Part shown: one piece after another, positions 7,677 through 39,400 of the stretch
Layout of the letters: every line of letters begins with the position of its first letter
How positions within the stretch are numbered: the stretch's first letter is position 1
Source of the DNA: Daejeonella sp.
Lineage (GTDB): Bacteria; Bacteroidota; Bacteroidia; Sphingobacteriales; Sphingobacteriaceae
DNA: 64,000 nt
NCBI RefSeq assembly: GCF_030695525.1
Contig: NZ_JAUYSS010000058.1
Coordinates: 100,580 to 164,579, forward strand
Direction of reading: 5' to 3'
Notes under the pieces: model-generated
Told to the model about the DNA's origin: nothing
Seen by the model: only the letters and a program-made list of their open reading frames with translations
Database searches by the model: none
Made by a program: the position numbers and the translations under genes

Positions 7677-8603
7677 TTAAAATGAAAGCTTCAGATTTAT
7701 CTCAAAATCTCCTGTGGTGCTGAATCCTCTCAGAACTGATGTACCAGTGGTATATAATGTGGAGAAGCCAATATTGGAATTATAATTAAAGCCTATTCCA
7801 AAAGTGCTGTTTCCAGTACTATGGTATATACCCGTCAAATTTAAACGATCACTGTTAAATGAAAACTTTGTACCTGCATCCAATATGTTTTTATAACCTT
7901 TTACACCTCTGAAAGCAATAATTGGTTCCATTACCATGGAATTCTTGGTATTAGAATTGCCAATTTTATATGTAAGGGCCGAGTAGAAAATCGAAAAATT
8001 AGAAGTACGAATGTAATCAGTCTTGAAAAAATTTTTAAGGTTAGGTATAGCCAATTGTACTTTAAGTTTATCATTGGTGTAGGCCATACCATAATCGCCA
8101 TCCAAAAAGAATTCCCTATTGTTATAATTACTTACTGAGGGGTCCCCTTCGTTCCCCACAATATCTTCGGTGCGTATCCTTTGTGTTAACATGCCTACTG
8201 AAAGACCAAAGTGTAATTGCTGGTCTTCTTTAAGGGGTAAATGATAAGCGAGCGTTGCTACAGTTCGCAAGGAATTCATTAGCCCTTCCTTTTCTTTTGT
8301 TAAATTTAGTCCCAGTCCAACCTTTCCTGTCTTTATAACTCCGGTAAATACCTGACTGACCGGGGCTCCGGGCACATCATTCCACTGCACCCTATTACTC
8401 AAATCAAATCTATATCCTGAATCTATACCCGCAGAAGAAGGATTTCCCAGATATTGATTATGAAAATACTGTGCGCCAAGTGGATAAAGCTGTGACCATG
8501 CCTGATTGGCACCGGAACAGCTGATCAGTACAATAAGGAATATCGATTTTAAAATTTGCTCTATGCCTCTGATCACTTTTATATAAAATATACTAAAAAG
8601 CAC
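7677..8603 (-). CDS. PorP/SprF-family type IX secretion membrane protein
   Basis: A 308-residue outer-membrane beta-barrel. After a signal peptide ending near NQAWSQ it has the PorP/SprF hallmark QYFHNQYLGNPSSAG, then alternating beta-strands ending in a C-terminal aromatic strand (INLKLSF). A GTG at 8576 would give a more usual signal peptide than the ATG at 8603. PorP/SprF proteins accompany T9SS substrates and are needed for secretion or surface attachment of their partner, as SprF is for SprB. This gene begins 36 bp downstream of the giant type B substrate on the same strand, the classical substrate-SprF arrangement, so the 3761-residue protein is its expected client. Confidence 0.9.
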   Translation of the reverse strand: MLFSIFYIKVIRGIEQILKSIFLIVLISCSGANQAWSQLYPLGAQYFHNQYLGNPSSAGIDSGYRFDLSNRVQWNDVPGAPVSQVFTGVIKTGKVGLGLNLTKEKEGLMNSLRTVATLAYHLPLKEDQQLHFGLSVGMLTQRIRTEDIVGNEGDPSVSNYNNREFFLDGDYGMAYTNDKLKVQLAIPNLKNFFKTDYIRTSNFSIFYSALTYKIGNSNTKNSMVMEPIIAFRGVKGYKNILDAGTKFSFNSDRLNLTGIYHSTGNSTFGIGFNYNSNIGFSTLYTTGTSVLRGFSTTGDFEINLKLSF

Positions 8604-14600: not shown

Positions 14601-17600
14601 TTTATTAACAATAACATTGTAGAAGGTTTGACTTAATACAGTACCATTAATCAATTGAGCACCCGTTCCTGTAAAGTTCAGGGTGTTAGTGCCCGGTGCA
14701 AAACTGCCTCCATTATTTGTCCAGTCGCCCCTGGATGTCAAATTAGTCCCTGAAGTTAGATTTCCGGCTGTAAGTAGTGCATTTCCATTTATTGTAAAAG
14801 CAGCGGGTGCAGTAAAATCACCCAGAGTTATGGTTAGATCATTTACTGTAAGTGTAGTAGTACTTCCACCTGTATTTAACAAACTACCTCCACTCTTATT
14901 CACAATTAAATCATAAAAGGTCTGAGAAGTTGAGGTGCCATTTATTGTTTGTGCTCCCCCTCCATTAAAATTAACCGTGTTGGTACCAGGGGTAAATATT
15001 GCAGCTGTTGCTTTAGTCCAGTCGCCTGCAATGTTTGTTGTTGTACCGGCTGTAAATGTGCCTGCAGTGAAGACCGCATTGCCATTAATAGTGAGAGTTG
15101 CGGGAGGAGTGAAATTCCCAAGTGTTTGGGTAAAATTGTTCACATTGAGCGTAATAATACTTCCTCCGGTGCTCAATACATTAGCGGCAGTCTTGTTTAA
15201 AATGAGATTATAGAAACTTTCGGTGGTATTGGTACTTGTGATTGCAGAAGTTGTTGAAGTGAAAGTTACCTGACCATTATTGTGAGCAAAACTGCCACTA
15301 TTGTTCCATTCACCTGATATTGTCATCGCTGCAGGACCAGTAAGTGTACTGCCTGAATTGATAGTTATATTTCGAAAAGTAATCGGAACGGCTCCGGCAA
15401 TTGCCTGAGTAGTACCATTAAAGGTGACTGTTCCTAGCCCTGCTGTAAAGACTCCACCGTTGTTTGTCATGTTACCGCCAATGAATAAAGAAGTACCGGC
15501 GGTCAGAGTACCACTTGATAAAGTTAAATTGCCATTGATATTTAAGGTAGCCGGAACAGTTAATACCCCTGTTTTGTTGACATGCAAATGGTGGAAAGTC
15601 TGGTTCACATCTGTTCCGTTTATTGCCTGAGCAACGGCACCTGTGAATGTGACAGTCCCTGCCCTTTGTAAAAAAGTTCCGCCATTATTGGTCCAGTTAA
15701 GCCCAAGTGAAATATCATAGTTTCCACTATTGCTTGCATCCAGAATAGCACCTGAGCTTATAGTTAGTGTATTTTGTAAAATAAGGTTGCCACCGGCAGT
15801 TGCACCGACTGTATTGGTGATATTTAGATAACCATAACCGGGTGCCGCAACCGGGTAAATAACCTGAGCTTTAGCACCTGAATAGGTAATTACACTGGCT
15901 GCTCCCAATGTAACCGTAGCAAAACCTGTTGGGAAAGCACCTTCTAATTGAAAAATAGCAGATGCAGAATTAGCTACCGAAAAAGTACCCCCGTTACCAT
16001 TACTGGTAAAGAGACCAATATCCAGAGTACCTGCTGTAATGGTAAGATCATTTGCAATAGAAGTATTGGTCAACAGAGTAGTCTTACCCGCCAATCCGTT
16101 CTCAATCAGGTTATAAAATGTAGTACTATTTGCTCCTCCAAGAGTTTGTGGGGTAGTTCTTGTAAAGGTTACGGTACCACTATTATGCACAAAAGCACCA
16201 TCATTTATCCAGTTTCCGGCAATACTTATTATTCCTGAGGAAGCTGTGAGTGTACTTGTTGGATTTATTGTGAAATGATTAAAGTTATGATTTGATGAAC
16301 CAGTAATCGCCTGAGCAGTTCCATTAAAATTTACTGTTCCTGCACCGGGAGTAAACGTTCCGCCATTATTAGTCCAGTTACCGGTAGCATTAATCGTTGT
16401 TCCGGCAGTTAGGATGCCTGCAGTTAATAAAGTGTTGCCATTAATATTAAAAATTGCAGGTGGAGTAAATGATCCTAATGTATTTGTATAATCATTTACA
16501 GTAATTGAAGTTGTGCTTCCTGTAATTGTCAGAGCCAGTGATTTATTGACTACCAGATCGTGAAAAACCTGACTTACTACTGTACCACCAATTGTTTGAG
16601 CAACAGTGCCAGTGAATGATAAAGTGCCACTGTTATGACTGAAGGAAGCACTATTTGAAAAATTCCCCTTTAAGTTCAGGTTCCCTGAAGTAGATAACAA
16701 AGTCCCTGCACTTATCGTAAGGCTGCTTATTGTCACATCATTGGAACCAAAACTAAGTGTCCCATTTCCCGCTTTTGTTAAACTAAATGTACTACCTGAA
16801 ACAATACCACCAACAGTCAGATTATTCGCTGCTATAGTTGCTACAATACTTGCGCCCAGTGTAACAGCGCCTGTACCCAGGTTTAAGTCATTAGCTCCAG
16901 TAAAAGTAAAGCTGCCATTCCAGGCCATCGGATAATACAGCGTGTTAATACTACTCCCTGAAGTGTTGTTTATTGTACCTGCCGTAATGGTAAAAGTTCC
17001 ATCAACTGTACCCAATGCCTGTGAATGATTGATATTAAGGATCCCAGCACTTAAGGTTGCACCCCCGGTAAAGGTATTTGCTGAACTCAGTGTCCAGGTT
17101 CCTGCTCCGATTTTTGTCAGGGTACCCGCTCCGGTTCCAATAATACTTGACATTGTCCCGATTCCGGCTCCCCCTAAAGTCAGTCCAAATCCCGATCCAG
17201 TTATGGTGCCTGGATTAGTAATGTTCAGTTCTCTGGCTGCAGTAGTTGCTACGATGCTGGATGCAGACTCAAGTGTAATCAGGCCCGAATAATCTGCGCT
17301 CAGTGTCGCTGAACCATTGATCAGCGCTCCTGCAGCAGCAATACCTGTACCATTCAAGGCAAGTGGTTCTGATGTAGAAAGTGTAATACCATTCACATTC
17401 AAAACCGCTCCGGTATTTACTCTGGTTCCTCCGTCTATGGTACCTAATGGTGAATTTGTACCGTCACCTGCAGCACCCAAAGCAATAGTACCTGTATTGA
17501 TTGTTGTTAAACCTGTGTAAGTACTTAATCCTGAAACCGTAAATATCAAAGTTCCTGCCTTTGTCAGGTTTAGTGTTCCTGAGCCATTCTGTATAATTCC

Positions 17601-19925
17601 TGAAAAAACTGTACTGGTATTATTTCCACCAGTGGTCAGTGTCACACTTCCTGCCTGACTGCTGGTAACCGTTCCTGCACCAGCCAGAGAACCTATGGTT
17701 GCATTAAAGCCATTGAGGTCAAGGGTTGAAGTCACAGTAACAGCACTGCTATTTGAAATTCCAGCATTGTTGGCTCCAACTTTTAGAGTACCCACACTGA
17801 TTGTCGTGACTCCCGTATAGGTACTGGCCCCGGAAAGCGTCCAGGATCCTGTTCCTGTTTTAACTACTGTTCCGGCTCCGGTACCTATAATACTTGATAT
17901 GCTTCCGTTTCCTGAACCACTTAAAGTAAGTGCAAATGCTCCTGTAATCGTTCCCAGATTGGTCAGGTTAAGATCTCCTGCGCTGGTAGCAATGCTTGTG
18001 GCCGCACCAATGGTGACCAAGCCACTGTAATCAACTGCTGTGGCCGAACTATTGGTCAGTGCTCCGCCGGCACTTATTCCGGTACTTCTAAGGGTTATGG
18101 CCTCAGCCGTTGCCAGTGTGAATCCATTCAGGTCAAGTGCTCCCGCTGTGATATTAACACCGTTATCTACAGTCCCCAAAGGCCCATTTGTTGCATTCCC
18201 TGCAGTACCCAGCCTGAGGGTCCCAGCACTTATAGTAGTTAAACCTGTAAACTCATTATCCGCTAAAAGCGTCCAAATTCCTGTTCCAATTTTGGTTAAG
18301 GTACCCGAACCGGTATTGATTAAACTTTGCATTGTTCCATTTCCTGTTCCTCCAAGCGTCAGGCCGAAACCCGAACCGGTAATGGTTCCTGTATTGATTA
18401 CCATACCTCCAGCCGCTGTTACAATACTCGCAGCAGATCCTAGTGAGATGGAGCCAGTATATGTAGAACTTAGAGTAGTTGAAGTATTATTCAGGGCGCC
18501 AGCAGATGCAATACCTGTTCCGTTTAAGGTAAGTGATTCAAGGGTCGAAAGACTAAACCCGGCAAGATTTAATGCTGCACCAGTATTAACTGTTGTTCCT
18601 GAAGCAATAGTACCCAATGGCGAGTTTGTGCCGTTTCCTGCAGCACCCAAAGTAAGTGTTCCGGCGCTTACTGTCGTAACTCCGGTATAGGAATTAAGTC
18701 CCGAAAGGACCATAATACCTGTTCCTGCTTTAGTTAAATCTAAAGTTCCGGCTCCGTCCTGAATTATACCAGAGAATGTTGTGGTTGTAGTATTATTCCC
18801 TCCTGTGGTCAAAACCAGTGCACCAGCAGCTGTGCTGGTCACTGTTCCAGCGCCTGCCAAAGAGCCTATAGTCTCAGAAAAACCATTTAAATCGAGAGTT
18901 CCTGTAACAGAAACAGAATGCGCGGAAATATCAGACAAAACATTGGCAGCTCCCAGTTGAATTGTGCCGGCACTGATTGTCGTGGCGCCGGTATAGGTAT
19001 TGGCAGTATTTAATGTTAATGTCCCTGACCCGGATTTTGTTAGTGCTATGGTTCTTATTCCATTTTGAATGATCCCTGAAAAGCTGGTACTTGTATTATC
19101 TGATCCAATAGTTAATACCCTGTTGGCAGCTCCATCACTGGTGATTGTGCTGCTACCTTCCAGACTTCCAACTGTGGTTGCTCCATCCAGATTAAGTGTA
19201 CCTGATGTTAATGTCAAACGTCCTGTAGCTGAGGTTGTACCTGAGAAAGTGGTCACTCCTGAAGCTTTATTGATGACAATATTACGATAAGCGGTTCCTC
19301 TAATCAATTGCGAACCGGTACCATTCAAAGTTAGTGTACTGGTGCCGGCTGTGAATGTCCCTGTTCCGGTAAAATCCCCACCCAAATTAATTATTGAATT
19401 ACCGGTACACGTTAAGGCATTTTCGGTAGTAGCTCCGGGCATAGCGATCGTACCGCTTACAGTCAGCGATCCCGTAGTAATTGTTAAATTATTATCTCTG
19501 GTAGATGTACTTGTATTGACAAAATTCAGATTAGCACAGCTTACTATACCGCTTCCTATGGCGATGGTTTGAACCCGGGAATCAATAGAAGGATCAGAGT
19601 ATGAAATATCACCCGTCACATCCAAAGTGAAAGCACCTGAAATGTTTAGAGCACTGTTTACTGAATTAGAAACAAAACTTATGGAACTGCACACTGCTCC
19701 GGTAGCATTTATTGTAACTGTAATGCCTGAATTGATGCTTACAGTTTCAGCGGCAGAAGGCACTGCTTCACCTCCCCAGGTGGCAATGTCATGCCAGTTA
19801 CCGCTAACACTTGCTATACGCTGTGCAAATAAATCAGTTCCTGCAAAAAGCAAAAAAAATGCCAATACTGTAAATTGAGAAATTACATTCACATTTTTAC
19901 TAAACAGACATTGTTTTTCGCACAT
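8640..19925 (-). CDS. Giant T9SS type B surface protein with autotransporter-type beta repeats and cadherin-like repeats
   Basis: A 3761-residue secreted protein, signal peptide ending near TDLFAQ (~35). The N-terminus has a GNWHDIATWGG motif common in Bacteroidetes surface proteins. Residues ~130-1100 are autotransporter-associated (PATR) beta repeats (GTLTL..ANTYTGATTISAGT). Residues ~1150-2650 carry a different repeat, GNWTNNGGTF followed by a TVNFNGT strand, consistent with a long beta-solenoid. Residues ~2690-3110 hold cadherin-like repeats, three of them almost identical. Ig-like and BIG2-type domains follow (~3110-3390), then another cadherin-like unit, and the last ~85 residues are the gliding motility-associated C-terminal domain (MSPNGDGINDTW) that directs T9SS type B export. 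Probably a surface adhesin. The very long plus-strand ORFs inside it are shadows. Confidence 0.93.
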   Translation of the reverse strand: MCEKQCLFSKNVNVISQFTVLAFFLLFAGTDLFAQRIASVSGNWHDIATWGGEAVPSAAETVSINSGITVTINATGAVCSSISFVSNSVNSALNISGAFTLDVTGDISYSDPSIDSRVQTIAIGSGIVSCANLNFVNTSTSTRDNNLTITTGSLTVSGTIAMPGATTENALTCTGNSIINLGGDFTGTGTFTAGTSTLTLNGTGSQLIRGTAYRNIVINKASGVTTFSGTTSATGRLTLTSGTLNLDGATTVGSLEGSSTITSDGAANRVLTIGSDNTSTSFSGIIQNGIRTIALTKSGSGTLTLNTANTYTGATTISAGTIQLGAANVLSDISAHSVSVTGTLDLNGFSETIGSLAGAGTVTSTAAGALVLTTGGNNTTTTTFSGIIQDGAGTLDLTKAGTGIMVLSGLNSYTGVTTVSAGTLTLGAAGNGTNSPLGTIASGTTVNTGAALNLAGFSLSTLESLTLNGTGIASAGALNNTSTTLSSTYTGSISLGSAASIVTAAGGMVINTGTITGSGFGLTLGGTGNGTMQSLINTGSGTLTKIGTGIWTLLADNEFTGLTTISAGTLRLGTAGNATNGPLGTVDNGVNITAGALDLNGFTLATAEAITLRSTGISAGGALTNSSATAVDYSGLVTIGAATSIATSAGDLNLTNLGTITGAFALTLSGSGNGSISSIIGTGAGTVVKTGTGSWTLSGASTYTGVTTISVGTLKVGANNAGISNSSAVTVTSTLDLNGFNATIGSLAGAGTVTSSQAGSVTLTTGGNNTSTVFSGIIQNGSGTLNLTKAGTLIFTVSGLSTYTGLTTINTGTIALGAAGDGTNSPLGTIDGGTRVNTGAVLNVNGITLSTSEPLALNGTGIAAAGALINGSATLSADYSGLITLESASSIVATTAARELNITNPGTITGSGFGLTLGGAGIGTMSSIIGTGAGTLTKIGAGTWTLSSANTFTGGATLSAGILNINHSQALGTVDGTFTITAGTINNTSGSSINTLYYPMAWNGSFTFTGANDLNLGTGAVTLGASIVATIAANNLTVGGIVSGSTFSLTKAGNGTLSFGSNDVTISSLTISAGTLLSTSGNLNLKGNFSNSASFSHNSGTLSFTGTVAQTIGGTVVSQVFHDLVVNKSLALTITGSTTSITVNDYTNTLGSFTPPAIFNINGNTLLTAGILTAGTTINATGNWTNNGGTFTPGAGTVNFNGTAQAITGSSNHNFNHFTINPTSTLTASSGIISIAGNWINDGAFVHNSGTVTFTRTTPQTLGGANSTTFYNLIENGLAGKTTLLTNTSIANDLTITAGTLDIGLFTSNGNGGTFSVANSASAIFQLEGAFPTGFATVTLGAASVITYSGAKAQVIYPVAAPGYGYLNITNTVGATAGGNLILQNTLTISSGAILDASNSGNYDISLGLNWTNNGGTFLQRAGTVTFTGAVAQAINGTDVNQTFHHLHVNKTGVLTVPATLNINGNLTLSSGTLTAGTSLFIGGNMTNNGGVFTAGLGTVTFNGTTQAIAGAVPITFRNITINSGSTLTGPAAMTISGEWNNSGSFAHNNGQVTFTSTTSAITSTNTTESFYNLILNKTAANVLSTGGSIITLNVNNFTQTLGNFTPPATLTINGNAVFTAGTFTAGTTTNIAGDWTKATAAIFTPGTNTVNFNGGGAQTINGTSTSQTFYDLIVNKSGGSLLNTGGSTTTLTVNDLTITLGDFTAPAAFTINGNALLTAGNLTSGTNLTSRGDWTNNGGSFAPGTNTLNFTGTGAQLINGTVLSQTFYNVIVNKTALTLLSVGGSNTTLTVNNFTQTQGDFTFTNTLDINGFLTLTAGTFTSGTMLNARGNWTNNSTFVHSNGTVNLDGILAQAIAGSSTTSFNNLTVSNTVAAVSVNTNTNIAGTLNMNGTGSLLIPGAAVVINNAGAVGTISGNGTIRITRIAATADYLNQYKFSTNTLNSLTLDFSGAGAQTVNGGLGDFGALTLSGSGAKTLPAIALNILGNFTFSGTASATALASITVGANVILGTGTVFTGGAFTHNIAGNWTNNGGTFTSINSTVNFNNTTGPQNINGTALTQTFFNILLNNNGQTLSLSGGTTTLSVGGDWTNNGGIFSGGAATVSFTGISKTIDGTSSTDFPIISIANGATITLNNSNTSTGLNLVSLSVNSSFTHGGTAALLVNGDVNIGQPTTSVRNNSWIINAGSATVSGLITLAGANVIASRIGRIALTTGTLNANGGITFIASAAATKVIDMSGGAAVLKLKGALTVPALSSTLTAGSSGSIINYLDTDPQTINFFSSGAYNNLRINNTSTAGASLSAPITTTNLMGNLFVGDTNTGSLFDTGDFNIALNNSQDLTIYEGSVINAGNTVISPATLATITVNGLFKTSNTSGFSGSVSAAINSANSPAIVLGTASTVEYTAAGGGQSVSPLVYNNLTMSNTSGNQTLSGNVTVTKTLSLNTGTMSIGANILTLNGPAIAGTPNSLSGNTTSSLVFGGSTLGITIPSSVSDLNNLTINNSNGVSLNADVGLTTNLLFSAGKLITGSNKLILNSGATITGAGQGTGWVNGNLQRNFSNTDPGIFEIGDLNYYSPLTLTFSGLTVAGNILGSSIATDHPNISGSGIKADKSINRYWTLTNSGVSFTTADLNFNWNTADNDAGIIPGNLRLAKYSGAVWIRPAVSGATTSSIQANGISSLSDFVIGEIANDFSPVITSNGGGVSASLSISENGTSVSTITATDADVVTTLSYSLSGGADAAKFSINNSTGVLSFIAAPDFEAPADADANNVYVVTVRASDGTNFADQTINVTILNVNEFSPLITSNGGGATAEISLPENSSIVTTVVATDADTTTPVYSLNGGADAAKFTINSSTGVLSFISAPDFEAPADADANNTYIVTVRASDGTNNIEQTITVIILNANDNSPLISSNGGGATASISLPENSTLVTTVVATDADNTSPVYSINGGPDATKFSINSSSGVLSFISAPDFEAPADADANNVYVVKVRASDGANFADQTISISITDLNDNKPLISQNQVFEIQESSPNNTIVGSVQASDNDAGTVLQNWTIISGNSGNAFTINPTTGILSVLTQASLQYELIQAFNLNLSVTDGLNISDNQVVKINLKEMSRPTIALGPSPSGCKGITAINLPYSSTSGSPEFYSISWNAAALLAGFNSITNAALTASSINITIPAQAASSTYSGTIIVKNAYKSSISYAFDIKINALPSLVLGQMPTVCKGTLNADISFTSASAAPNSYSIIWDQPALSAGFVNVDPGTSFPLGSFAVNIPVNAPAAIYTGSLFIKNSTCSAPAYPIQIKINDLPEIPIISGLQEVYVNKTIQLSASAQGGVWSSSNATIASVDPVSGLVSGKSNGKVTISYSVKYSNSCSNNALVDILVSTENSVISLNWVPLQVYGNSTIGTLVGTLSASSINQGAVYSFSLVPGAGSTDNSLFEISGNEIRIARLFNITHDKTFSIRVRATDQNGLSEDRVLSVNVIHVNQPPTIAATANMVICSTPSPQVLNLNGISPGPEPGQNVSITVSTDNINLFNTLNVSAVNGSNAALDYTLKDGLSGIANITLILTDNGGTANGGKNSLISTFTITVNPAVTANISSAVGVSISKGQTVELIASGGNSYAWANAAGIISGQNTDKLIVRPAENKSYQVTVTNSFGCTAVLSIALNVIEDFITLQPANIMSPNGDGINDTWIIENIDMYPDNEVRVYDKAGRLIFYKKGYTNTWDATLNGSYLAEGTYYYYVDFGLGLKKLKGYITIVRD
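10893..11850 (-). repeat. Three tandem 318-bp cadherin-like coding repeats
   Basis: Within the giant adhesin gene a strongly conserved DNA block (gcatcggcaggagcttc and surroundings) recurs at about 10993, 11311 and 11629, an exact spacing of 318 bp or 106 codons. Each unit encodes a cadherin-like domain (SLPENS, DADANN, VRASDGTN motifs). The near-identity at DNA level suggests recent tandem duplication or gene conversion. Boundaries are approximate. Confidence 0.85.
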
Positions 19926-25784: not shown

Positions 25785-26155
25785 ATCATATTAAATATAG
25801 CATAAATTAATAGCGGTTCTTAAACAAAAAGGTAAAAGGTAAAACCCCATAATGAATGTAAAGTAGAAAATGAGGTTTTCAGAAATTCCTGGATTTGTCC
25901 ATTTGCGATGTTAGCAATTTTTCGTCAGGTACCCTCCATTTTATTGAAATAATAAAACAAAGATGAACCAGAAATTCTATGTGTAGGAAAACAGAAAGGC
26001 AAGGTTCTACTTTTAAGCATTAATCAAATTGCCTGAATTTTCATAAATTGCAACAGTATAATTCATATTAATACCAGCCTCTCAAACATCACCTGAATTT
26101 TAACGTTAAAAATCTGATGGAGCATAGCAACATAGAATTTCATCCGGCAAAAAAA
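25785..26155. other. Intergenic region between divergent kinase and YaiO-like genes
   Basis: About 330 bp (to the first possible start at 26117). It holds a short heptamer repeat (25827-25847) and AT-rich sequence that should contain divergent promoters. I could not place a convincing Bacteroidetes -7/-33 pair and saw no RNA gene or further ORF. Confidence 0.4.
25827..25847. repeat. Short heptamer tandem repeat (AAAAGGT x2-3)
   Basis: AAAAGGT, AAAAGGT, AAAACCC in direct 7-bp succession in the gap between the kinase and YaiO-like genes. Taken alone it is weak. It is listed because several other arrays in this window share the same period. Confidence 0.4.
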
Positions 26156-27433
26156 ATGTCCTTAACAGAAATTAATTACTCCCTGGTACTAAGAGGAATA
26201 CTTTGCTTAATCGTTTTATTTTCTCTCAGTACGATCAAAATTTCAGCCCAGGAAACCGAAAGTTCAGATGAACTTTTTATAAAAGCCAGAAAACTTGCTT
26301 TCGACGACAAAAATTATATTAAAGCAATAGCTTTAACCAAACAGGCCTTAATACAGAGTCCGGACTATGCCGATATCAGAATATTTTTAGGCCGCTTGTA
26401 TACCTGGACAGACAAGCCAGACAGTGCGAGAATTGAATTTAAAAAAGTACTCGAAAAGAACCAGGGCTATGAAGACCTTTATCTCGCCTATGGTTCAATG
26501 GAATACTGGAACAAAAATCCTGAGGAGGCCTTTAAAATAGTTTCTGAGGGAATAAGATACAATGAAAAATCAGAAAGCCTGTTATTACTCGGCGCGAAAA
26601 TATTTCTGGATCTAAAGAAATTTGAGGAGGCGAACCTCACACTAAGACATCTCCTGAAGCTTTATCCAAATTCAACTCAGGCACGTGCACTGGCTGGCAC
26701 ACTAGGGAATATTGGATCCAAAAACAGAATTGGCTTTAGTTATGATTATGTATATTTCGATAAACAATTTGATGACCCCTGGCATTTAGGGAGTATTGAT
26801 TACAGCAGGCAAACAGGAATTGGTCCCTTAACTGCAAGAGTAAATTTTGCTAACAGGTTTAAGACCAATGGCACACAGTTAGAACTTGATTTTTACCCAA
26901 GAATTTCCAACACGTTTTATGCCTATATGAGCGGAGGATATTCGGGCAATGTTGGCGTATTTCCGGAATATCGTGCAGGATTTTCATTGTATGCAAATCT
27001 GCCTTCAGCATTTGAGGCCGAAGCTGGATTCAGGATGTTGAGTTTTAATGACCAGACCTGGATCTATACGGCTTCATTAGGTAAATACCATGAAAATTTC
27101 TGGTTTAATCTAAGGACATTCCTTAGCCCATCTAGTAATGATATCTCACAGTCTGTAGCGTTCAGTACGCGCTACTACTTTGGTGGAGCCAATGATTTCC
27201 TGAGTCTAGTAGTTGGAACCGGCCTTTCGCCTGACAACCCAAGAAATAACCTGCTCTATAATAATGGCAATACCTATAAGTTGAAATCAAATAATATTTC
27301 CTTAGGATATCGCAAAAGCATTAAAACTACAAATATTCTCATCTTTAAAGCTTCCCTTGAAAACCAGCAATATTTACCGGATACAAGAGGTAATCAGCTG
27401 GAATTAGGGATTGGATATATGAAACTATTTTAA
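26117..27433 (+). CDS. TPR plus YaiO-type outer-membrane beta-barrel protein
   Basis: 438 residues. The ATG at 26156 gives a cleaner signal peptide (MSLTEINYSLVLRGILCLIV, ending ISAQ) than the one at 26117. Residues ~50-200 contain TPR-like helical pairs (AIALTKQALIQSPDYADIRIFLGRLY, then PEEAFKIVSEGIRYN). Residues ~205-438 are alternating beta-strands of the YaiO outer-membrane barrel family (IGFSYDYVYFDKQFDDPW, FYAYMSGGYSG, ending LELGIGYMKLF). The TPR-plus-barrel layout resembles PgaA and BcsC, the exporters of synthase-dependent polysaccharides. The stop lies 2 bp from that of the convergent GT2 synthase gene, so the two belong to one conserved-looking locus. An export role is inferred. 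Confidence 0.85.
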   Translation: MEHSNIEFHPAKKMSLTEINYSLVLRGILCLIVLFSLSTIKISAQETESSDELFIKARKLAFDDKNYIKAIALTKQALIQSPDYADIRIFLGRLYTWTDKPDSARIEFKKVLEKNQGYEDLYLAYGSMEYWNKNPEEAFKIVSEGIRYNEKSESLLLLGAKIFLDLKKFEEANLTLRHLLKLYPNSTQARALAGTLGNIGSKNRIGFSYDYVYFDKQFDDPWHLGSIDYSRQTGIGPLTARVNFANRFKTNGTQLELDFYPRISNTFYAYMSGGYSGNVGVFPEYRAGFSLYANLPSAFEAEAGFRMLSFNDQTWIYTASLGKYHENFWFNLRTFLSPSSNDISQSVAFSTRYYFGGANDFLSLVVGTGLSPDNPRNNLLYNNGNTYKLKSNNISLGYRKSIKTTNILIFKASLENQQYLPDTRGNQLELGIGYMKLF

Positions 27434-27435
27434 AG

Positions 27436-28860
27436 CTATTTTTTCGCGCCCGACAAACCTGCCCTTGTCATTTCACCCCAGGAGGATTTTTTTCTCAAAA
27501 AATCAATGTTACCCATAATTGCCGACCATACTCCAAAAGGATGTAAAATTACAGGCTCCAAAATTGCCGTTAGAAATAAACGAATCATATCCTTCGGCTC
27601 TTTATATTGATTATAGGTGCGTACCTCCATCAGAATTGCAAAAACTGAATACAAAATCCCGAAAGTATAAATCATAAGTAACAGGGACAAGAAGTTTAAA
27701 AAATTCACAAGTCCAAAAATAACTGATATGATAAAATAAATTATTCCCATGAACTCAATTATTGGTGCTAGAAATTCAAAAAAGAACCAATATGGATAGC
27801 TTAACATCCCCATTAAATGATATTTAGGATTTAAAAACATCACTTTATGAATCTTTAGTGTTTCTATTGTACCTCTGGTCCATCGGTTTCTCTGCCTTCC
27901 CAAAATTTTAAAATCTGAAGGCGCTTCTGTCCAGCAAAGGGGATCCGGTATAAAACTAACTCTGTAAGGAAGTTTCATTTCTTCCATATATCGACGCATC
28001 CTTACAACCAGTTCCATGTCCTCCCCAACTGTTTTATGGTTATAACCGCCACATTTAATCGCAATCTCTTTATCAAATGCACCAAAAGCGCCGGAGATCA
28101 GCATCAAACCACCCAAACGGCTCCAGGCCATCCTTCCGAGCAGAAATGCACGGATGTACTCTAAGGTCTGCATCCTGGGCAATAATTGATCAGGCAGATG
28201 TACCTTTATCAAGCGACCGTCAGCAATTTCACAACCATTGGCAATCCTAACCACGCCACCGGTGGCAATCACTCTGTGACTGGCAGATTCAAGAAAAGGT
28301 TTTACCAGCTTCAATATGGCATCCTGTTCAAGGATACAATCTACATCAATGCAAACTATATAATCATTTTTGGAAATATTGATTCCAACATTTAGTGCAT
28401 CTGCTTTTCCCCCGTTCTCCTTATCAACTACAATCAGTTTATTATATATAGGATTCCTGCTTTTATATACTCCACGTATGGGCTTGGTACTAAGCCTCTC
28501 ATCAACAAAGTGTTCTGAATTAAAGAGTTCGTAAGCCTGAATTAGTTTTTCCAGGCTGTCGTCTTTACTACCATCATTGATAATGATAACTTCCATGTTG
28601 CTATAATAAATGGAAAGCAGGGAACGCACATTTTCAATTATATTTGCCCCTTCATTATAGGCAGGTGCAAGAATGCTGATATGGGGTGAATCTGAAGAAT
28701 TAGCAAGCAAACGATAATTTGTAAAACTATTCTTATTCATATACTTTTTAAGCTCTCCGATCGAAAAAAGTCCTATGAAAATGTAACCGCTAATCAGAAT
28801 AACAGAAAAAGAAAGAAGAAAAGTTGTGAAAACAGTAATAATTAAATCAAGCCAATTCAT
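27436..28860 (-). CDS. Processive family 2 glycosyltransferase (membrane polysaccharide synthase)
   Basis: 474 residues with one N-terminal transmembrane segment (~8-32), a GT2 catalytic domain (~55-290) and about four C-terminal membrane helices. All processive-synthase motifs are visible: APAYNEGANI, the DVD metal site in CIDVDCI, the acid in GEDMELV, and QRNRWTRG, the QxxRW acceptor-site motif of cellulose, hyaluronan and PNAG synthases. No PilZ domain is present, so c-di-GMP control is not built in. Its start overlaps the stop of the HEAT gene by 4 bp (ATGA), indicating translational coupling. The sugar polymerised cannot be read from the sequence. Confidence 0.9.
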   Translation of the reverse strand: MNWLDLIITVFTTFLLSFSVILISGYIFIGLFSIGELKKYMNKNSFTNYRLLANSSDSPHISILAPAYNEGANIIENVRSLLSIYYSNMEVIIINDGSKDDSLEKLIQAYELFNSEHFVDERLSTKPIRGVYKSRNPIYNKLIVVDKENGGKADALNVGINISKNDYIVCIDVDCILEQDAILKLVKPFLESASHRVIATGGVVRIANGCEIADGRLIKVHLPDQLLPRMQTLEYIRAFLLGRMAWSRLGGLMLISGAFGAFDKEIAIKCGGYNHKTVGEDMELVVRMRRYMEEMKLPYRVSFIPDPLCWTEAPSDFKILGRQRNRWTRGTIETLKIHKVMFLNPKYHLMGMLSYPYWFFFEFLAPIIEFMGIIYFIISVIFGLVNFLNFLSLLLMIYTFGILYSVFAILMEVRTYNQYKEPKDMIRLFLTAILEPVILHPFGVWSAIMGNIDFLRKKSSWGEMTRAGLSGAKK

Positions 28861-29996
28861 GCCGCTTCCTCCTGTATTTGTGCAATAATTTGTGTAAGCG
28901 GGTATTGACTTGAAGCAGGATGGGATTGAATAGCCTCTATCCCGACCTGCCCTATTGCCGCCAGAGCCTTCGCTGAAGCAAGCTTCACCGCATCAACTTC
29001 ATCCGAAAGAAGGCTTACTAAAAAGGGAATTTCAGTATCTGTACTAACCGACTCAAGTGTTCGCAGAATTGCCAATTGATTATTAGCTGTCTCAGAAAAA
29101 TAAATATCTGTTAAAATTGCTGCCGACTTCTCACTAGGCAGATTTTTTAAAACTGATATCGCCTTTTGTCTGACCATTGGATTATTATGCCTTAGACAGA
29201 CAACTACCTGATCAAAGAGTTCAAACCGGTGATAGTTTTTCACAAGATTTAATGCAAAAAGCACAATGGTATCATTTTTGGATTCCAGCCATACCTCAAT
29301 TCCGGTAAAATGCTCTGTTGGTAAACTGGCCAATTGATCCAGTAATTTAATTTGCTGCCATTTAGTAATCGGATAAGTTGCATTATCCAGAAAACGCAGC
29401 CCTTCAAAACCATAAAATTTTAAAATGGCATTATGAGCTTCTACGCGAATTAAACCACGTTCATGATCAACAAATTCGAATATTCTGTGTTTATATTCAT
29501 CCAGTTCCATTACCCCGATTTGTTGAATAGCGGATGCTATTTTATACCATGAAGAACTATTCAGCATTTTCAGAACCTGTTTATCAAAGTTTAATTGTCT
29601 GAATAGCCTTGTCAGATTATCTGAAGCGGCACCTGACATATTTAGCTTTACAGCAATTAATTTTTGAATAAGGGTTTTCCGAAAGTTAGTATTGTGCAAG
29701 TGTTTAGCCATTCCGAAAGGTAACTCAATGTTTGTCCGGGATACTATATCCAACAGTTCAGCGGTCTGATCACCATCCGGGTTATCATCTTCATGGAAGA
29801 TAACTTTGTAAATCATATCATCAGTCAAAGTATTCCATCGGTCTGTTTGCTTTTGCCTCGCTCTCAGAATCCCCTGATAAATTAAGATGTATATGAATAA
29901 AACAACAATAAAAAAAGAAAACAGAATTGCAGCAATCAAAGGAAAGGGTAATCCTGAGAAAAAATCAATTTGAATATTTAAATCGGATAGCCTCAA
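28857..29996 (-). CDS. Membrane-anchored HEAT-repeat protein
   Basis: 379 residues. An N-terminal helix (~18-42, PLIAAILFSFFIVVLFIYIL) anchors the protein and the remainder is alpha-helical and presumably cytoplasmic. Residues ~160-375 show HEAT-type repeats (VVVCLRHNNPMVRQKAISVLKNL, IPFLVSLLSDEVDAVKLASAKAL). HEAT solenoids act as protein-binding scaffolds. It sits between a CheY-like receiver (18 bp upstream) and the GT2 synthase (4-bp overlap), so the simplest reading is that it links the receiver to the synthase or assembles the synthase complex. That role is inference and no catalytic motif is present. Confidence 0.85.
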   Translation of the reverse strand: MRLSDLNIQIDFFSGLPFPLIAAILFSFFIVVLFIYILIYQGILRARQKQTDRWNTLTDDMIYKVIFHEDDNPDGDQTAELLDIVSRTNIELPFGMAKHLHNTNFRKTLIQKLIAVKLNMSGAASDNLTRLFRQLNFDKQVLKMLNSSSWYKIASAIQQIGVMELDEYKHRIFEFVDHERGLIRVEAHNAILKFYGFEGLRFLDNATYPITKWQQIKLLDQLASLPTEHFTGIEVWLESKNDTIVLFALNLVKNYHRFELFDQVVVCLRHNNPMVRQKAISVLKNLPSEKSAAILTDIYFSETANNQLAILRTLESVSTDTEIPFLVSLLSDEVDAVKLASAKALAAIGQVGIEAIQSHPASSQYPLTQIIAQIQEEAA

Positions 29997-30013
29997 AAGT
30001 ATTATATTAAAGC

Positions 30014-30382
30014 CTAACTTTTTACACTATCAGCGAAGCGACGGATACGTACAGATAATTCATTCGGACTGAACGGTTTTGTAATATAATCATCGGCACC
30101 GAGCCGAAAAGCTTCTAATATAACACTTTCCTGCCCCATCCCCGATAATACAATAACCTTAATTTTATCAGGATATTTTTGCTTTACTGAACCCACGATC
30201 TCCAAACCTGTCGAATAGGGCATCATTATATCCGTAATTACCAGGTCAGGCATATACTGATCAATTAAGTCTAATGCGGCCTTACCATCACGGGCCAGGA
30301 AAATTTCATGTCCATCACGCTTCAACCGAAATTCAAGTGTTTTCAACATTAATTCATCGTCTTCAGCAATTACAATTTTCAT
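30014..30382 (-). CDS. Stand-alone CheY-like response regulator
   Basis: 122 residues, a single receiver domain: acidic pocket EDDE (~7-10), phosphoacceptor Asp at ~51 in VITDIMMP, switch Ser in VLSGMG, and the conserved Lys in ITKPFSP. No output domain follows, so it must act by protein contact. It is the first gene of an apparent operon with the HEAT protein and GT2 synthase. It is divergent from the GAF pseudokinase gene (166 bp apart). A role as phospho-switch for polysaccharide synthesis is inferred from this order. Confidence 0.92.
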   Translation of the reverse strand: MKIVIAEDDELMLKTLEFRLKRDGHEIFLARDGKAALDLIDQYMPDLVITDIMMPYSTGLEIVGSVKQKYPDKIKVIVLSGMGQESVILEAFRLGADDYITKPFSPNELSVRIRRFADSVKS

Positions 30383-30547
30383 TTCAGGCAGATATTTCCA
30401 GATGTAACTTTTGATTGTGGTCTAAAAAAGCAAAATTTAGACTCAAAAATACATTTATTTGAAGATTTTGAGCAGATTTCAGATTAAAAACAAAATAATT
30501 AAAATAATTATTGATCTAAGTATATTTACGTTCCAAATTATTATTTA

Positions 30548-31684
30548 ATGATTCAGCCATTACCGCTTAATGAAGCGAAAAGAATTCTTAGTCTTTCAAA
30601 CCTTGATGTCGATTACAGCACATTAGAAGATAATTTTAAGCATCTGATGAAACTGGCATCCAGGCTAACAGACATGGATGTTACCCTATTAAATCTGGTA
30701 GATTCCTATACTCAATGGACTATAGCACAACATGGCATTCAATTACCATCAATGCCCAGAGAGGAATGCGTATGTCAGTATACGATAGTTCAGGATCAAG
30801 GTTTCGAAATCAAAGATCTTTCTACTGATACCCGATTTGAGCAGGCTTCTTATGTTAAAAACGATCCAAAGTTACGCTATTACTATGGTGTGCCGTTAGA
30901 AATGAGCAATGGGGTAAATATTGGTTCTCTTTGTGTGATGAATCGAGAAATAAAAATTCTCAGTAATGATAAAATAGATCTTTTAAAGATCATTGCAGAG
31001 GAAATAGTCTGTAAATTAAAAGATTTCCAAAAAATTAATGAGTTAAAAAATGAGCTATCTGATGCAATTAAAATGCAACGTAAAATCGCTCATGATATTA
31101 GAAACCCACTAGCCGGAATAATTGGGATTTCTGATATACTCATTGAGCCTGATGAAGAACACGATCAGGAAGAAGTTTTACACTGTCTTAAACTTATTAA
31201 TAATAGTAGCAAATCAATCCTTGAGATTGCAGACAACATCTCAATGGAACTCTTTGATAAAGTGAGTCACTCGCACAGTTTTAACCTTGAAGCACTCGCC
31301 GAACGAATTAACCACCTGTATTTACCTCTCGCAAAAAACAAAAAATTAATTCTTGAATTTACCATTGATAAGAGCAAAGAGCATATTCACTTCTCAAAAA
31401 ATAAACTCCTTCAAATAATTGGAAGTCCTGTTTCAAGTGCTATTAAATTAAGTAAACCGGGTGCTTTGATTAAAATCCAGCTTGGACTTACTATACAATC
31501 TGACCGAAATATACTACAGGTTCAGATCAATAGTAACGATCCTATAAGTCGCGAAATTAGCCCTGAAAGTATTGTATTAAATTTCACTAAGGAGCTTATT
31601 GAAAGTAAGGATGGAACGCTCCATTTTGAGTATAATGAGCTGGAAGGACTATCTTATAAATTAAGTATTCCCCAGTCAGGCTGA
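30548..31684 (+). CDS. GAF-domain histidine kinase-like protein, probable pseudokinase
   Basis: 378 residues. A GAF domain (~15-165, NLVDSYTQWTIAQHG, MPREECVCQYT, YYYGVPLEMSNG) is followed by a dimerisation helix that keeps the histidine (IAHDIRNPLAGIIG). The ATPase region is degenerate: where the paralogous kinase at 38192-39400 has N box NLISNAIKF, G1 DTGEGL and G2 GYGFGLQL, this protein has SPVSSAIKL, NSNDPIS and SIVLNFTKE. ATP binding is therefore unlikely. It may be a phosphotransfer or regulatory protein. It is transcribed away from the receiver-HEAT-GT2 operon, which makes that receiver a plausible partner. It converges on the DUF4838 gene with 8 bp between stops. Confidence 0.85.
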   Translation: MIQPLPLNEAKRILSLSNLDVDYSTLEDNFKHLMKLASRLTDMDVTLLNLVDSYTQWTIAQHGIQLPSMPREECVCQYTIVQDQGFEIKDLSTDTRFEQASYVKNDPKLRYYYGVPLEMSNGVNIGSLCVMNREIKILSNDKIDLLKIIAEEIVCKLKDFQKINELKNELSDAIKMQRKIAHDIRNPLAGIIGISDILIEPDEEHDQEEVLHCLKLINNSSKSILEIADNISMELFDKVSHSHSFNLEALAERINHLYLPLAKNKKLILEFTIDKSKEHIHFSKNKLLQIIGSPVSSAIKLSKPGALIKIQLGLTIQSDRNILQVQINSNDPISREISPESIVLNFTKELIESKDGTLHFEYNELEGLSYKLSIPQSG

Positions 31685-31692
31685 AACAACTC

Positions 31693-33948
31693 TTATTCAA
31701 CAATTATTTCATCTATCATTAACCAGGGTTTCCGGTCTTTTCGGTTGCGCCAGGAAGGTATTTCAGTTTGATTGATCGCTGTTATTTTTATGTAACGAGC
31801 TTTTGTTTTACTCAGATCAAAACTAAATTTCCTGATCGGTGCTGAAACATCTTCAAAGGGTCCCTCTATAAGCAGACTTGCTGCCTGTTTGTAGCTTTTA
31901 CCATCATCTGATAATTCTATGCATATTTCCTTAGGCAAAAACATATAATGCCGGTGATTCTCTAGAAATGACATTTCAATTTTGTTGATCCGGATTTGAG
32001 TTTCCATGTCGATTTCGACTTTCATATCAGTTTCATTCCACCCAAGCCAGTTGTACTGAAAATCCTCTGTACCACTAGTTCCATCAACAAGTGTCCTTGC
32101 TCCTTTGCTTACAAATTCCGGATTGTTTTCAGTTAATAATCTTACTGGTTTATTTAATGCTTTATGAATGACAGGGCCGGTTCTAAAAATATGCTCCCAT
32201 TCTTTCAAATATTGTTCAGGACTAAATCCAGACTCATTTAATTGAGTGATCTGATTGTCTCTGGCCGACTCATAAAAATATTGAACCTTTCTTCTGATCT
32301 CCTCTCTGACCACCCAGTTTTTATTCTGTTTTATGAAAACTCCATTCTGATCAATTCCAAAAAATCTGGCTTGTTGTAAAACTGCAAAATGCAAAGGCAA
32401 AGAAACCATTTGAACCCGTTTTGTTAATTCAATATCTCCTTTAACAAGAGTTTCTGCCGTATCCAGAATATGTAGATATTCAGTAAGTAGTTGAGGACTA
32501 AGGTAAGTTTGATAAGGCATTATAGGGTTATCGTAAATATCCATTCTTTTCCATGAGGCACGAACATGCTCATGAATGAGGTCTATGTATTGGCCGACAT
32601 AAACTCCGGCATTTCCATAATAGTTATTTAGGAATTCTGTTTTAATTTTATCTGTGTCTGAATCTTTATCCCAAAGAAGCTTTGATAAAATATATGTCCT
32701 CAACTCAGCCAGTTCTCCTGGAATCTCAACGCTGCCCTGTATAAAAAAACCATCTGCCTGCTTTTTAGAAAAGTAATCAAAATTAGGCTTCAGTGTATGC
32801 AGGTTTGGAAAGGGGCTGATATAATTCGTGAACTGTACGACATAATCCCAAACAATAATATTTGAAGTCAGTTTCTCCCATCCATTGTAATCCTTTCTAA
32901 TTTTTTCTGAACGTGGATCAGTATCAAGCGGCTTGCTGCGGTTAATATCGATTGCAGAAAACATGATATTTACATTCGGCAGCGGCTTAAGACCTACAGG
33001 TGGTTTTCTGGAATACGTATAAGCAAGAGTCGAAATCGTTTTATCAGGAAAGTTTGCAGCAACCAGATTTACAAAAGTTAACAAAGATCCCTGATTACTT
33101 TCATGCCTCTTATTCAAGGCGGAGCACTGATTACATTCACAGGCTCCGATATCGTCATTCTGACTTAGAGACCAATATTTTAATGCAGCAGCATCAGTAA
33201 TCCTTTTACCCAATTCATTTACTACTATCTTTAAAACATCAGGGTTTGTCAGGCATAATTGCATTGCTCTTCTTTCCCCATTTACCAAACTGAAATATTC
33301 GGGATGTTGATTGAAGTACTGCGCGGGGGAAAGCAACTTAAAAAACGAATGGCCCCATAAACCCCATTTATCTTCGATGCGATTTAGTTTATGCCAGTCA
33401 AGATATTCCTGATCAGTTTCTGCATCCCAATAGTGTAATGATCTGAAATTAATTTCCGGGTTTTGAAGATCATTTATGACCGGCAGTACGATTGAGCCCT
33501 GTTTAGGAATCAGTGAAAATCTGGAAGAATATTTTCTGCAACCCATATATGTTTCCAGAAAAGTGTATACACCATACAGTGTACCTTTTCCTTTACCTGA
33601 AATAATAAGTTTATTGGATTTGGTGGCTATCAGAAACCCATCATTTTGAATACTCTCATTTACCTCAATACGACCGGTATTTCCAATTAATATCTCCAAT
33701 TCAGAAGGGGGCAAACTATCATCAATAATCGGAATTAATGCCCCGGAAATTTGATGAAGATAATTCTGTAAGATAATAGACGCAGACAGTTCATGAACGG
33801 AGGCATTCTTTGACCTGACAATTGAATATCCAGACCTCCCATTTTCAACCAGGGTAATGGAAAAAGACATCATTGGTATAAATGAAAATATAAGAACACA
33901 GAGAAAGCGAAAATCAATCATAGGAAAACAATGAATTCTCATAATCAA
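31693..33948 (-). CDS. Secreted DUF4838 glycoside hydrolase-like protein
   Basis: 751 residues. The ATG at 33921 gives the neater signal peptide (MIDFRFLCVLIFSFIPMMSF). Residues ~45-150 resemble the non-catalytic N-terminal domain of GH67/GH20 enzymes (FLETYMGCRKYSS). Residues ~170-480 match DUF4838, a TIM-barrel family related to alpha-glucuronidases (HPEYFSLVNGERRAMQLCLTNP, QNDDIGACECNQC). The last ~140 residues look like an F5/8-type carbohydrate-binding module (YKQAASLLIEGPFEDVS, ARYIKITAINQT). It probably acts on a polysaccharide in the periplasm or at the surface. The substrate is unknown and catalytic residues cannot be fixed from sequence alone. Confidence 0.83.
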   Translation of the reverse strand: MIMRIHCFPMIDFRFLCVLIFSFIPMMSFSITLVENGRSGYSIVRSKNASVHELSASIILQNYLHQISGALIPIIDDSLPPSELEILIGNTGRIEVNESIQNDGFLIATKSNKLIISGKGKGTLYGVYTFLETYMGCRKYSSRFSLIPKQGSIVLPVINDLQNPEINFRSLHYWDAETDQEYLDWHKLNRIEDKWGLWGHSFFKLLSPAQYFNQHPEYFSLVNGERRAMQLCLTNPDVLKIVVNELGKRITDAAALKYWSLSQNDDIGACECNQCSALNKRHESNQGSLLTFVNLVAANFPDKTISTLAYTYSRKPPVGLKPLPNVNIMFSAIDINRSKPLDTDPRSEKIRKDYNGWEKLTSNIIVWDYVVQFTNYISPFPNLHTLKPNFDYFSKKQADGFFIQGSVEIPGELAELRTYILSKLLWDKDSDTDKIKTEFLNNYYGNAGVYVGQYIDLIHEHVRASWKRMDIYDNPIMPYQTYLSPQLLTEYLHILDTAETLVKGDIELTKRVQMVSLPLHFAVLQQARFFGIDQNGVFIKQNKNWVVREEIRRKVQYFYESARDNQITQLNESGFSPEQYLKEWEHIFRTGPVIHKALNKPVRLLTENNPEFVSKGARTLVDGTSGTEDFQYNWLGWNETDMKVEIDMETQIRINKIEMSFLENHRHYMFLPKEICIELSDDGKSYKQAASLLIEGPFEDVSAPIRKFSFDLSKTKARYIKITAINQTEIPSWRNRKDRKPWLMIDEIIVE

Positions 33949-38191: not shown

Positions 38192-39400
38192 CTAAGACAC
38201 ATTTGCATTAATCATTACTTCAAATACGGATCCTTCACCGGGTACAGAACTTATATTAAGTTTACCATTCAAACCATAAATCAGATGTTTGATTAGTTGC
38301 AAACCAAAACCATAGCCTTTCTCGCCATCAGTTCCATTTTCTGATGAAGCACTTCCATTGAGAATAACATCTATTTTCTCAAGGCTTAAACCTTCACCGG
38401 TATCCTTTACCTTGATGTTTAAATTATTACTTGACTGTGAAACATCCATATCCAATTCCACGATGACCTTACCACCATTGGGAGTAAATTTGATCGCATT
38501 AGAAATCAGGTTTCCTGTAATCTGAAGCAATTTGTTTTTTGGAAAAGGTACCCCCATGGCCCGAGGATTGATATTTACTTCAAAGTGAATATTTTTTGAC
38601 TTTGCCTGAGGAAGATATAACTTTTGAAGTTTATCCTTGAAGGATTGCATATTCAATTCATTTCCTTTAAAAGCAACTGTTTTTTCTTTGTCGGCACTTA
38701 AAATTTCATCGGCAAGTTCAAGAATTGACTTTCCACTTTTGTGAATGAGGTTAATGAACTCAAGTACTTCATCTATTTTGTTTTCCTTCCCTTGTTCGCT
38801 GATCATTTCTGTTAGTCCAATTATTCCTCCTAAAGGTCCGCGTATATCATGAACTACCTTGTTTTGAGTTGCTTGAACTTCCTTTACTTTATTTCTTAAG
38901 CCTTCAATAGCTTTATATGCTTTCAGACGGTTAACAATTTCGTCAGCTATAATCCTCAAAAGTTCTTCTTTCTCTGGTGAGATTGTTCTCGTTTCTCTGT
39001 CCATTACACAAAGTGCTCCAATATTAAAGCCATCTGATTTCAATGGAATACCATAATAATATCGCAGTTTTTCTTCGCCGGCCACATAAAATCTTTCCAA
39101 AAAACGCTCATCTTTAGAAAGATCTTCAACCTCAAGAGCAGAGTCTTCAGAAGCTATCAGGTATTGACAAACTGATTCTTCTCTAGGCATTTGCTCAACA
39201 TCTATACCATAATTTGTGATGGTCCATTGGGTATAAGAGTCGATCAGATTAACCAAAGAAATTGGCGTACCAGCAACTCTTGCAGCCAATTTGGCTAAAT
39301 CTTTGAATTTATCCTGAAAATTGGAATAATCGAGATTGAAATCAGAGAGGTTCAGTACTCTTTCAAATTCATTTTTTAGAATTGGCGAATCTAAAGTCAT
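38192..39400 (-). CDS. GAF-domain sensor histidine kinase
   Basis: 402 residues, soluble. GAF domain at ~15-165 (NLIDSYTQWTITNYG, MPREESVCQYL, YYYGIPLKSDGFNIGALCV), HisKA helix with VVHDIRGPLGGIIGL, then a complete ATPase domain: N box NLISNAIKF, G1 DTGEGLS, G2 GYGFGLQLIKHL. It is a clear paralogue of the protein at 30548-31684, with the same order and very similar GAF motifs, but this copy keeps all ATP-binding boxes. No receiver lies next to it. It is upstream of folE on the same strand with 114 bp between, so separate transcription is likely. Confidence 0.92.
   Translation of the reverse strand: MTLDSPILKNEFERVLNLSDFNLDYSNFQDKFKDLAKLAARVAGTPISLVNLIDSYTQWTITNYGIDVEQMPREESVCQYLIASEDSALEVEDLSKDERFLERFYVAGEEKLRYYYGIPLKSDGFNIGALCVMDRETRTISPEKEELLRIIADEIVNRLKAYKAIEGLRNKVKEVQATQNKVVHDIRGPLGGIIGLTEMISEQGKENKIDEVLEFINLIHKSGKSILELADEILSADKEKTVAFKGNELNMQSFKDKLQKLYLPQAKSKNIHFEVNINPRAMGVPFPKNKLLQITGNLISNAIKFTPNGGKVIVELDMDVSQSSNNLNIKVKDTGEGLSLEKIDVILNGSASSENGTDGEKGYGFGLQLIKHLIYGLNGKLNISSVPGEGSVFEVMINANVS

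Follow-up and report, generated by a model that had tools for sequence, protein, structure and literature searches.

In the described synthase-dependent systems of exopolysaccharide secretion, a processive family 2 glycosyltransferase (GT2) with the motifs DxD, (G/T)ED and QxxRW is encoded together with a protein combining tetratricopeptide repeats (TPRs) and a beta-barrel, and the usual switch is cyclic di-GMP (c-di-GMP). The closest of these are Pga (PgaABCD) and type II Bcs (BcsA/BcsC/BcsG), the latter pairing a c-di-GMP-dependent synthase and a TPR/barrel exporter with a decorating transferase, BcsG, whose five transmembrane helices dock on cellulose synthase and which adds phosphoethanolamine to nascent cellulose (PMC11470070). 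A further GT2 and a YaiO-type barrel share one cluster in Escherichia coli, the uncharacterised yaiS-yaiP-yaiX-yaiO. Here we describe a locus in a stretch of 64,000 nucleotides (the window) from Daejeonella sp. (GCF_030695525.1, contig NZ_JAUYSS010000058.1) in which a GT2 synthase, a membrane HEAT-repeat protein and a TPR-YaiO barrel protein are encoded with a lone receiver (REC), and which probably belongs, in reduced form but still under selection, to a synthase-dependent kind of polysaccharide secretion system that occurs across the Bacteroidota, has not been described before and is switched by the receiver and HEAT protein. The locus comprises the following features, with coordinates as positions in the window:

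26117..27433, plus strand: TPR-YaiO barrel protein, candidate outer-membrane exporter (438 aa; PF19413, TIGR04390)
27434..27435, no strand: deletion junction between the YaiO and GT2 stop codons (from alignment with sister G015, locus L009)
27436..28860, minus strand: processive GT2 polysaccharide synthase, PgaC-like (474 aa; PF00535/PF13641)
28857..29996, minus strand: membrane-anchored cytoplasmic HEAT-repeat protein (379 aa; PF13646; TTG start at 29996)
30014..30382, minus strand: stand-alone CheY-like receiver, REC (122 aa; PF00072, 94.6 bits)
30548..31684, plus strand: GAF-HisKA pseudokinase, transcribed away from the receiver operon (Pfam GAF and HisKA)
38192..39400, minus strand: intact GAF-HisKA-HATPase kinase, paralog of the pseudokinase (402 aa; HATPase_c, 66 bits)

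The operon of receiver, HEAT and GT2 genes proposed in an initial annotation, and the TPR-YaiO gene said to converge on it, were recovered exactly as described, with 2 bp separating the stop codons of the convergent YaiO and GT2 genes. The 3' end of the HEAT gene and the start of GT2 share 4 bp. The synthase has transmembrane helices at its N- and C-terminal ends, and the motifs on which its earlier assignment relied, DVD (residues 172-174), GED (279-281) and QRNRW (323-327), are kept in at least 95% of 86 relatives. Its best NCBIfam model is PgaC_IcaA (138.9 bits, equivalog cut-off 422.3) and the TPR region of the window's YaiO protein is likewise PgaA-like, but that protein reaches only 25.3 bits against the PgaA equivalog cut-off of 366.65; both matches thus lie far under the curated thresholds, and no PgaB- or PgaD-like gene occurs in the locus. 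Nor was a homolog of BcsB, BcsQ or BcsE seen in this locus or its relatives, unlike Bcs. In its processive GT2 and its TPR-barrel protein, a predicted exporter encoded with the synthase, the locus fits synthase-dependent secretion; it is not Pga by curated cut-offs and not Bcs by its regulators.

Relatives of the synthase were collected by a scan of bacterial genomes (n = 80; 64-92% identity), and addition of genus-level relatives extended the set to 87 loci; the phylum was represented by an evenly drawn sample of 297 genomes, in which GT2 homologs were counted at E <= 1e-60. Nearly all of the 80 are labelled Bacteroidota (Sphingobacteriales, Chitinophagales, Cytophagales, Flavobacteriales), and a record labelled Beijerinckiaceae (L059) is probably misbinned, because its GT2 clusters inside the Chitinophagaceae/Bacteroidota clade. 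Every one of the 80 GT2 loci carries the HEAT gene, with REC in 77 and YaiO in 62, several loci being cut by contig borders. The exact 4-bp overlap of HEAT and GT2 recurs in 69 of 87 loci; in the phylum sample HEAT lies near GT2 in 56 loci, upstream and on the same strand in all 56, and the divergent HEAT copies of other classes match the profile of the window's HEAT family. The constant partner of the synthase is the HEAT protein, not the receiver, a point that the initial annotation had not made. This partner has a hydrophobic helix at its N-terminus followed by HEAT repeats; an enlarged form of 931 aa occupies the equal operon position at L125:8560-11355 (minus strand), and long forms with an extra region also occur in G148, G152, G252 and G292.

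Conservation extends to the barrel gene, which converges with GT2 in 56 of 68 loci. Among the 297 genomes, GT2 was found in 71 and YaiO in 70, with both in 70 (Fisher p 5e-68) and YaiO without GT2 in none; within this sample YaiO lies no more than 8 kb from GT2 in 68 of 79 GT2 loci. Because synteny is conserved and the genes co-occur, the observation is far above chance. The HEAT-GT2-YaiO neighbourhood is strongly conserved and the system is Bacteroidota-wide, so that the co-occurrence in this phylum that the initial annotation had offered as a check is borne out. In the open-access literature searched on YaiO function, on HEAT proteins combined with synthases and on receiver-controlled synthases, we found no description of such a system. 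A second, diverged REC-HEAT-GT2-YaiO locus (46-48% GT2 identity) was observed at L103:5145-9681 and L104:5701-10038, in the same genus as the window; in it YaiO lies on the same strand, with no transferase between.

Membership of the barrel protein in the YaiO family is unambiguous (PF19413, 241.2 bits against a cut-off of 23.9; TIGR04390, 193.5 against 32). Its AlphaFold2 model (pLDDT 87) comprises a signal region, about 4.5 TPRs (residues 50-199) and a 14-strand beta-barrel (203-437), and compared with the PDB its top match is E. coli BcsC (9b8a; E 8e-11), with OmpG at rank 3 and PelB (9h80) at rank 4. An exporter-like TPR and barrel architecture, without which the earlier proposal would have failed, is therefore present, within what a model can reveal about a pore. 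No role for YaiO, an outer-membrane protein of E. coli, was found in the open-access literature searched. The yai cluster of that organism encodes a GT2, YaiP, 26% identical over 234 aa to the synthase described here, and a YaiO of 257 aa lacking the TPR part; its modifying enzymes are the deacetylase YaiS and the acyltransferase YaiX (split by IS2 in K-12), not a transferase of LtaS fold, and it has no receiver, HEAT protein or kinase. It is an independent pairing of GT2 and YaiO in another phylum.

Regulation sets the locus apart from the described systems. The c-di-GMP receptor (PilZ, PgaD, PelD or Alg44) that is usual, though not universal, on synthases of this kind is apparently absent; in place of the c-di-GMP dependence of Bcs there are the receiver and HEAT protein, as the initial annotation had suggested. 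The window's own genome (98% complete) encodes neither GGDEF nor PilZ domains anywhere, in searches whose controls were positive and which did not separately cover PgaD/PelD-type receptors, and GGDEF was found in none of 33 system-bearing genomes of the same class; c-di-GMP synthesis, and hence control by it, is not expected here. The receiver retains an intact phosphorylation site (D8, D51, S80, K102), each residue being kept in 77-80 of 80 relatives, and carries no output domain. Many Chitinophagaceae have a hybrid kinase directly upstream of REC, that of L055 combining HisKA, HATPase, receiver and Hpt.

In the window, the GAF protein diverging from the operon is a pseudokinase, as first annotated, in that its ATP-binding boxes are lost: Pfam gives no HATPase match, and the N-box and G-boxes are absent in alignment with intact Pedobacter homologs. 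The phospho-acceptor His182, however, is still there in a HisKA domain of 35.4 bits (cut-off 26.9); in other members of the family the histidine is lost too. The intact kinase at 38192-39400, not noted earlier, is its 44% paralog and adjoins folE, as it does in two sister species. It groups with L040 at 97/98, within a clade of intact kinases encoded beside YaiO/P2 (P2 being a gene described below) or REC in loci of other Sphingobacteriaceae, among them Pedobacter and Desertivirga. Of the kinases considered it is the best candidate for phosphorylating REC, with the pseudokinase perhaps acting as its partner or its antagonist. The possibility that the pseudokinase is the ortholog, now decayed, of the intact kinases in Pedobacter was considered and set aside, the intact paralog and the tree making a duplicate likelier.

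Other classes are organised differently. There, GGDEF occurs in 23 of 38 system-bearing genomes, and a GGDEF protein lies close to GT2 in four loci that were read: REC-GGDEF-REC in L118, GGDEF-EAL with a lone REC in L121, CHASE3-GAF-GGDEF in L119 and GGDEF-EAL in L122. The regulatory module of the HEAT-GT2-YaiO core looks swappable, and we tentatively entertain, at somewhat less than even confidence, a HEAT-gated synthase core with a modular switch, fed by a kinase through a lone receiver in the window's class and by a diguanylate cyclase in several others. These same arrangements bear on a competing account, unlikely in our view yet far from negligible, in which the polysaccharide machine is correctly recognised while the receiver shuttles phosphate elsewhere or titrates a kinase, HEAT being only an assembly factor for GT2. 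It would explain why REC is linked in some loci to the kinase and YaiO and not to the HEAT gene (REC lies elsewhere in 10 of 87), and why HEAT-GT2 in other classes is accompanied by a diguanylate cyclase. Against it, REC precedes the HEAT-GT2 pair in the same orientation in 74 of 87 loci, and where it has moved it is still found within the locus; this protein without an output domain is the slowest-evolving of the locus (dN/dS, the ratio of nonsynonymous to synonymous substitution rates, 0.008 between window and sister, a rough value as dS is near 1).

Most relatives carry, between GT2 and YaiO, a 3.2-kb stretch with two extra genes, and the sister G015 (L009/L106) holds at the window's junction a transferase gene of 2046 bp and a second gene, P2, of 1155 bp. 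The transferase has 680 residues with a sulfatase-fold domain of LtaS/OpgB type (PF00884), VP1736 (3lxq) as best PDB match, and five transmembrane helices predicted in 26 of 33 proteins; residues E290, T330, D523, H524 and H539 are invariant in 33 of 33. With LtaS, OpgB, EptA and BcsG it shares the fold, the N-terminal transmembrane helices, the metal ligands and threonine at the nucleophile position. Threonine occupies this position in LtaS and EptA, and formylglycine sulfatases differ; the residue thus points to phospho-group transfer by an enzyme of LtaS/OpgB/BcsG type. Unlike those enzymes, it is encoded beside the GT2 synthase and often fused to it: fusion to the GT2 C-terminus was found in 25 distinct loci, with at least 6 fusion/fission changes on the GT2 tree. 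Single open reading frames of this kind, of about 1140-1230 aa, occur in L011, L020, L044, L049-L053, L056, L057 and L061, among others. In combining synthase, candidate TPR/barrel exporter and a five-helix, putatively decorating transferase, such loci resemble type II Bcs; in the window the gene of this enzyme has been deleted.

P2, present at L009:11480-12634 (minus strand) and in about 40 further loci, is a 384-residue periplasmic protein with one helix, for which no match was found in Pfam, NCBIfam or PDB sequence families. Its model (pLDDT 87) is weakly ThuA/GATase1-like and GH42/Agd3-like (E about 1e-4, query TM score at most 0.38), and because this likeness is weak we claim no enzyme activity for it. 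It was found in 11 of the 297 phylum genomes, all 11 with GT2 and YaiO. The two extra genes occur together in 42 of 76 scored loci and are both missing from 20, and independent pairs favour their going together by about 7 to 0 (median p 0.016).

G006 (L099) and G015 form, with support 100/91, the pair that is sister to the window on the GT2 tree. G015 has both genes and G006 neither, and G013 lacks the transferase but has kept P2. What remains in G006 is a stretch of 114 bp, the first 51 bp or so of which match the transferase start at 82%, with an early in-frame stop. Since G006 is closer in DNA sequence to G015 (91.1%) than to the window (82.4%), the losses in G006 and in the window were independent. 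The window's own genome encodes no P2, and the transferase only as a 25% paralog. That an assembly error removed the two genes was rejected: the junction is internal to a contig, neither gene is found elsewhere and a sister species bears a scar. Loss of transferase and P2 is lineage-specific and recurrent. The lack of a modification enzyme remarked on in the initial annotation is accordingly real in the window, but it does not characterise the system at large, as most relatives carry both genes.

The transferase suggests another construction of the locus, which we hold to be improbable: GT2 and an LtaS-type transferase would together build a glycan that carries phospho-groups and stays in the periplasm or linked to a membrane, comparable to osmoregulated glucans (OpgH/OpgB) or teichoic-acid-like polymers, and YaiO would be a porin or structural protein of the envelope instead of the glycan's exporter. 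Phosphoglycerol transferase I is indeed the best NCBIfam match of the transferase, and LtaS is among its further matches, both scoring far under cut-off; the YaiO barrel resembles that of OmpG, a general porin of 14 strands. Yet the TPR-barrel chain as a whole matches BcsC best and PelB at rank 4, YaiO accompanies GT2 across the phylum even where the transferase is lacking, the window included, and no OpgH model appears among the NCBIfam matches of GT2 (the genome was not searched for OpgG).

Purifying selection acts on the genes that remain; in the comparison with the sister given above for REC, and with the same roughness, dN/dS was 0.06 for GT2, 0.07 for the pseudokinase, 0.10 for YaiO and 0.12 for HEAT. 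Given this selection and the loss in the window's lineage, its system is reduced, not primitively minimal, and judging from the sequences it is probably still in use. That the copy is a decaying, non-functional remnant, as its two deleted genes and a neighbouring kinase devoid of ATP-binding motifs could suggest, is very improbable, because all remaining genes are open and constrained and a core lacking both extra genes persists in many other lineages (the 20 of 76 loci above).

As a reduced polysaccharide secretion system, the locus might operate as follows. A GAF sensor kinase, probably that at 38192-39400, would phosphorylate the lone receiver, with modulation by the pseudokinase; the phospho-receiver would then act on the membrane HEAT protein, which would sit on GT2 and switch it, a proposal of which the conserved coupling of the HEAT and GT2 genes is the part directly observed. 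GT2, judging from its motifs and what is known of its family, would polymerise the sugar and drive the chain through the inner membrane. The TPR domain would guide the chain to the YaiO barrel for release outside, a step that we infer from the BcsC/PelB fold match and the almost invariable co-occurrence of YaiO with GT2. In the complete system the membrane transferase, often fused to GT2, would add a phospho-group to the polymer with the assistance of the GATase-like P2; the window's lineage, having lost both, would export an undecorated polymer. Of the exopolysaccharide machine first proposed, then, the unit of GT2 and TPR/barrel exporter is supported, and the production of polysaccharide by it we infer.

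Several observations weigh against this interpretation. The chief structural caveat is that the 14-strand YaiO barrel is smaller than the barrels of BcsC, PgaA and AlgE, which have 16-18 strands, and the TPR part of the protein is short. GT2 falls so far under the PgaC equivalog cut-off that its score fixes no sugar, and the dN/dS values are, as said, rough. Finally, in some lineages a diguanylate cyclase replaces the receiver beside the core or accompanies it, so that receiver control is not universal.

Neighbouring genes of the window include, at 31693-33948 (minus strand), one for a glycosidase-like protein with DUF4838 and F5/8-type C domains that adjoins the pseudokinase in sister species too; the second GT2-YaiO locus in L103 is likewise flanked by a DUF4838 gene. 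At 8640-19925 (minus strand) lies the gene of a candidate giant secreted adhesin, 3761 aa long, in which PATR repeats and cadherin domains are combined with a type IX secretion signal (CHU_C); it is followed by a PorP/SprF gene (7677-8603, minus strand), whose product is likely its dedicated partner.

If the proposed reading is true, a phospho-receiver directly controls an exopolysaccharide synthase without c-di-GMP, and the question of how such machines are controlled in a class whose sampled system-bearing genomes lack GGDEF would gain a conserved and testable answer, from receiver to HEAT protein to synthase. YaiO would gain a testable function, that of polysaccharide exporter. The natural GT2-transferase fusions would tie polymer synthesis to decoration, and close relatives that have repeatedly lost the decoration step would offer a ready comparison for its effect.

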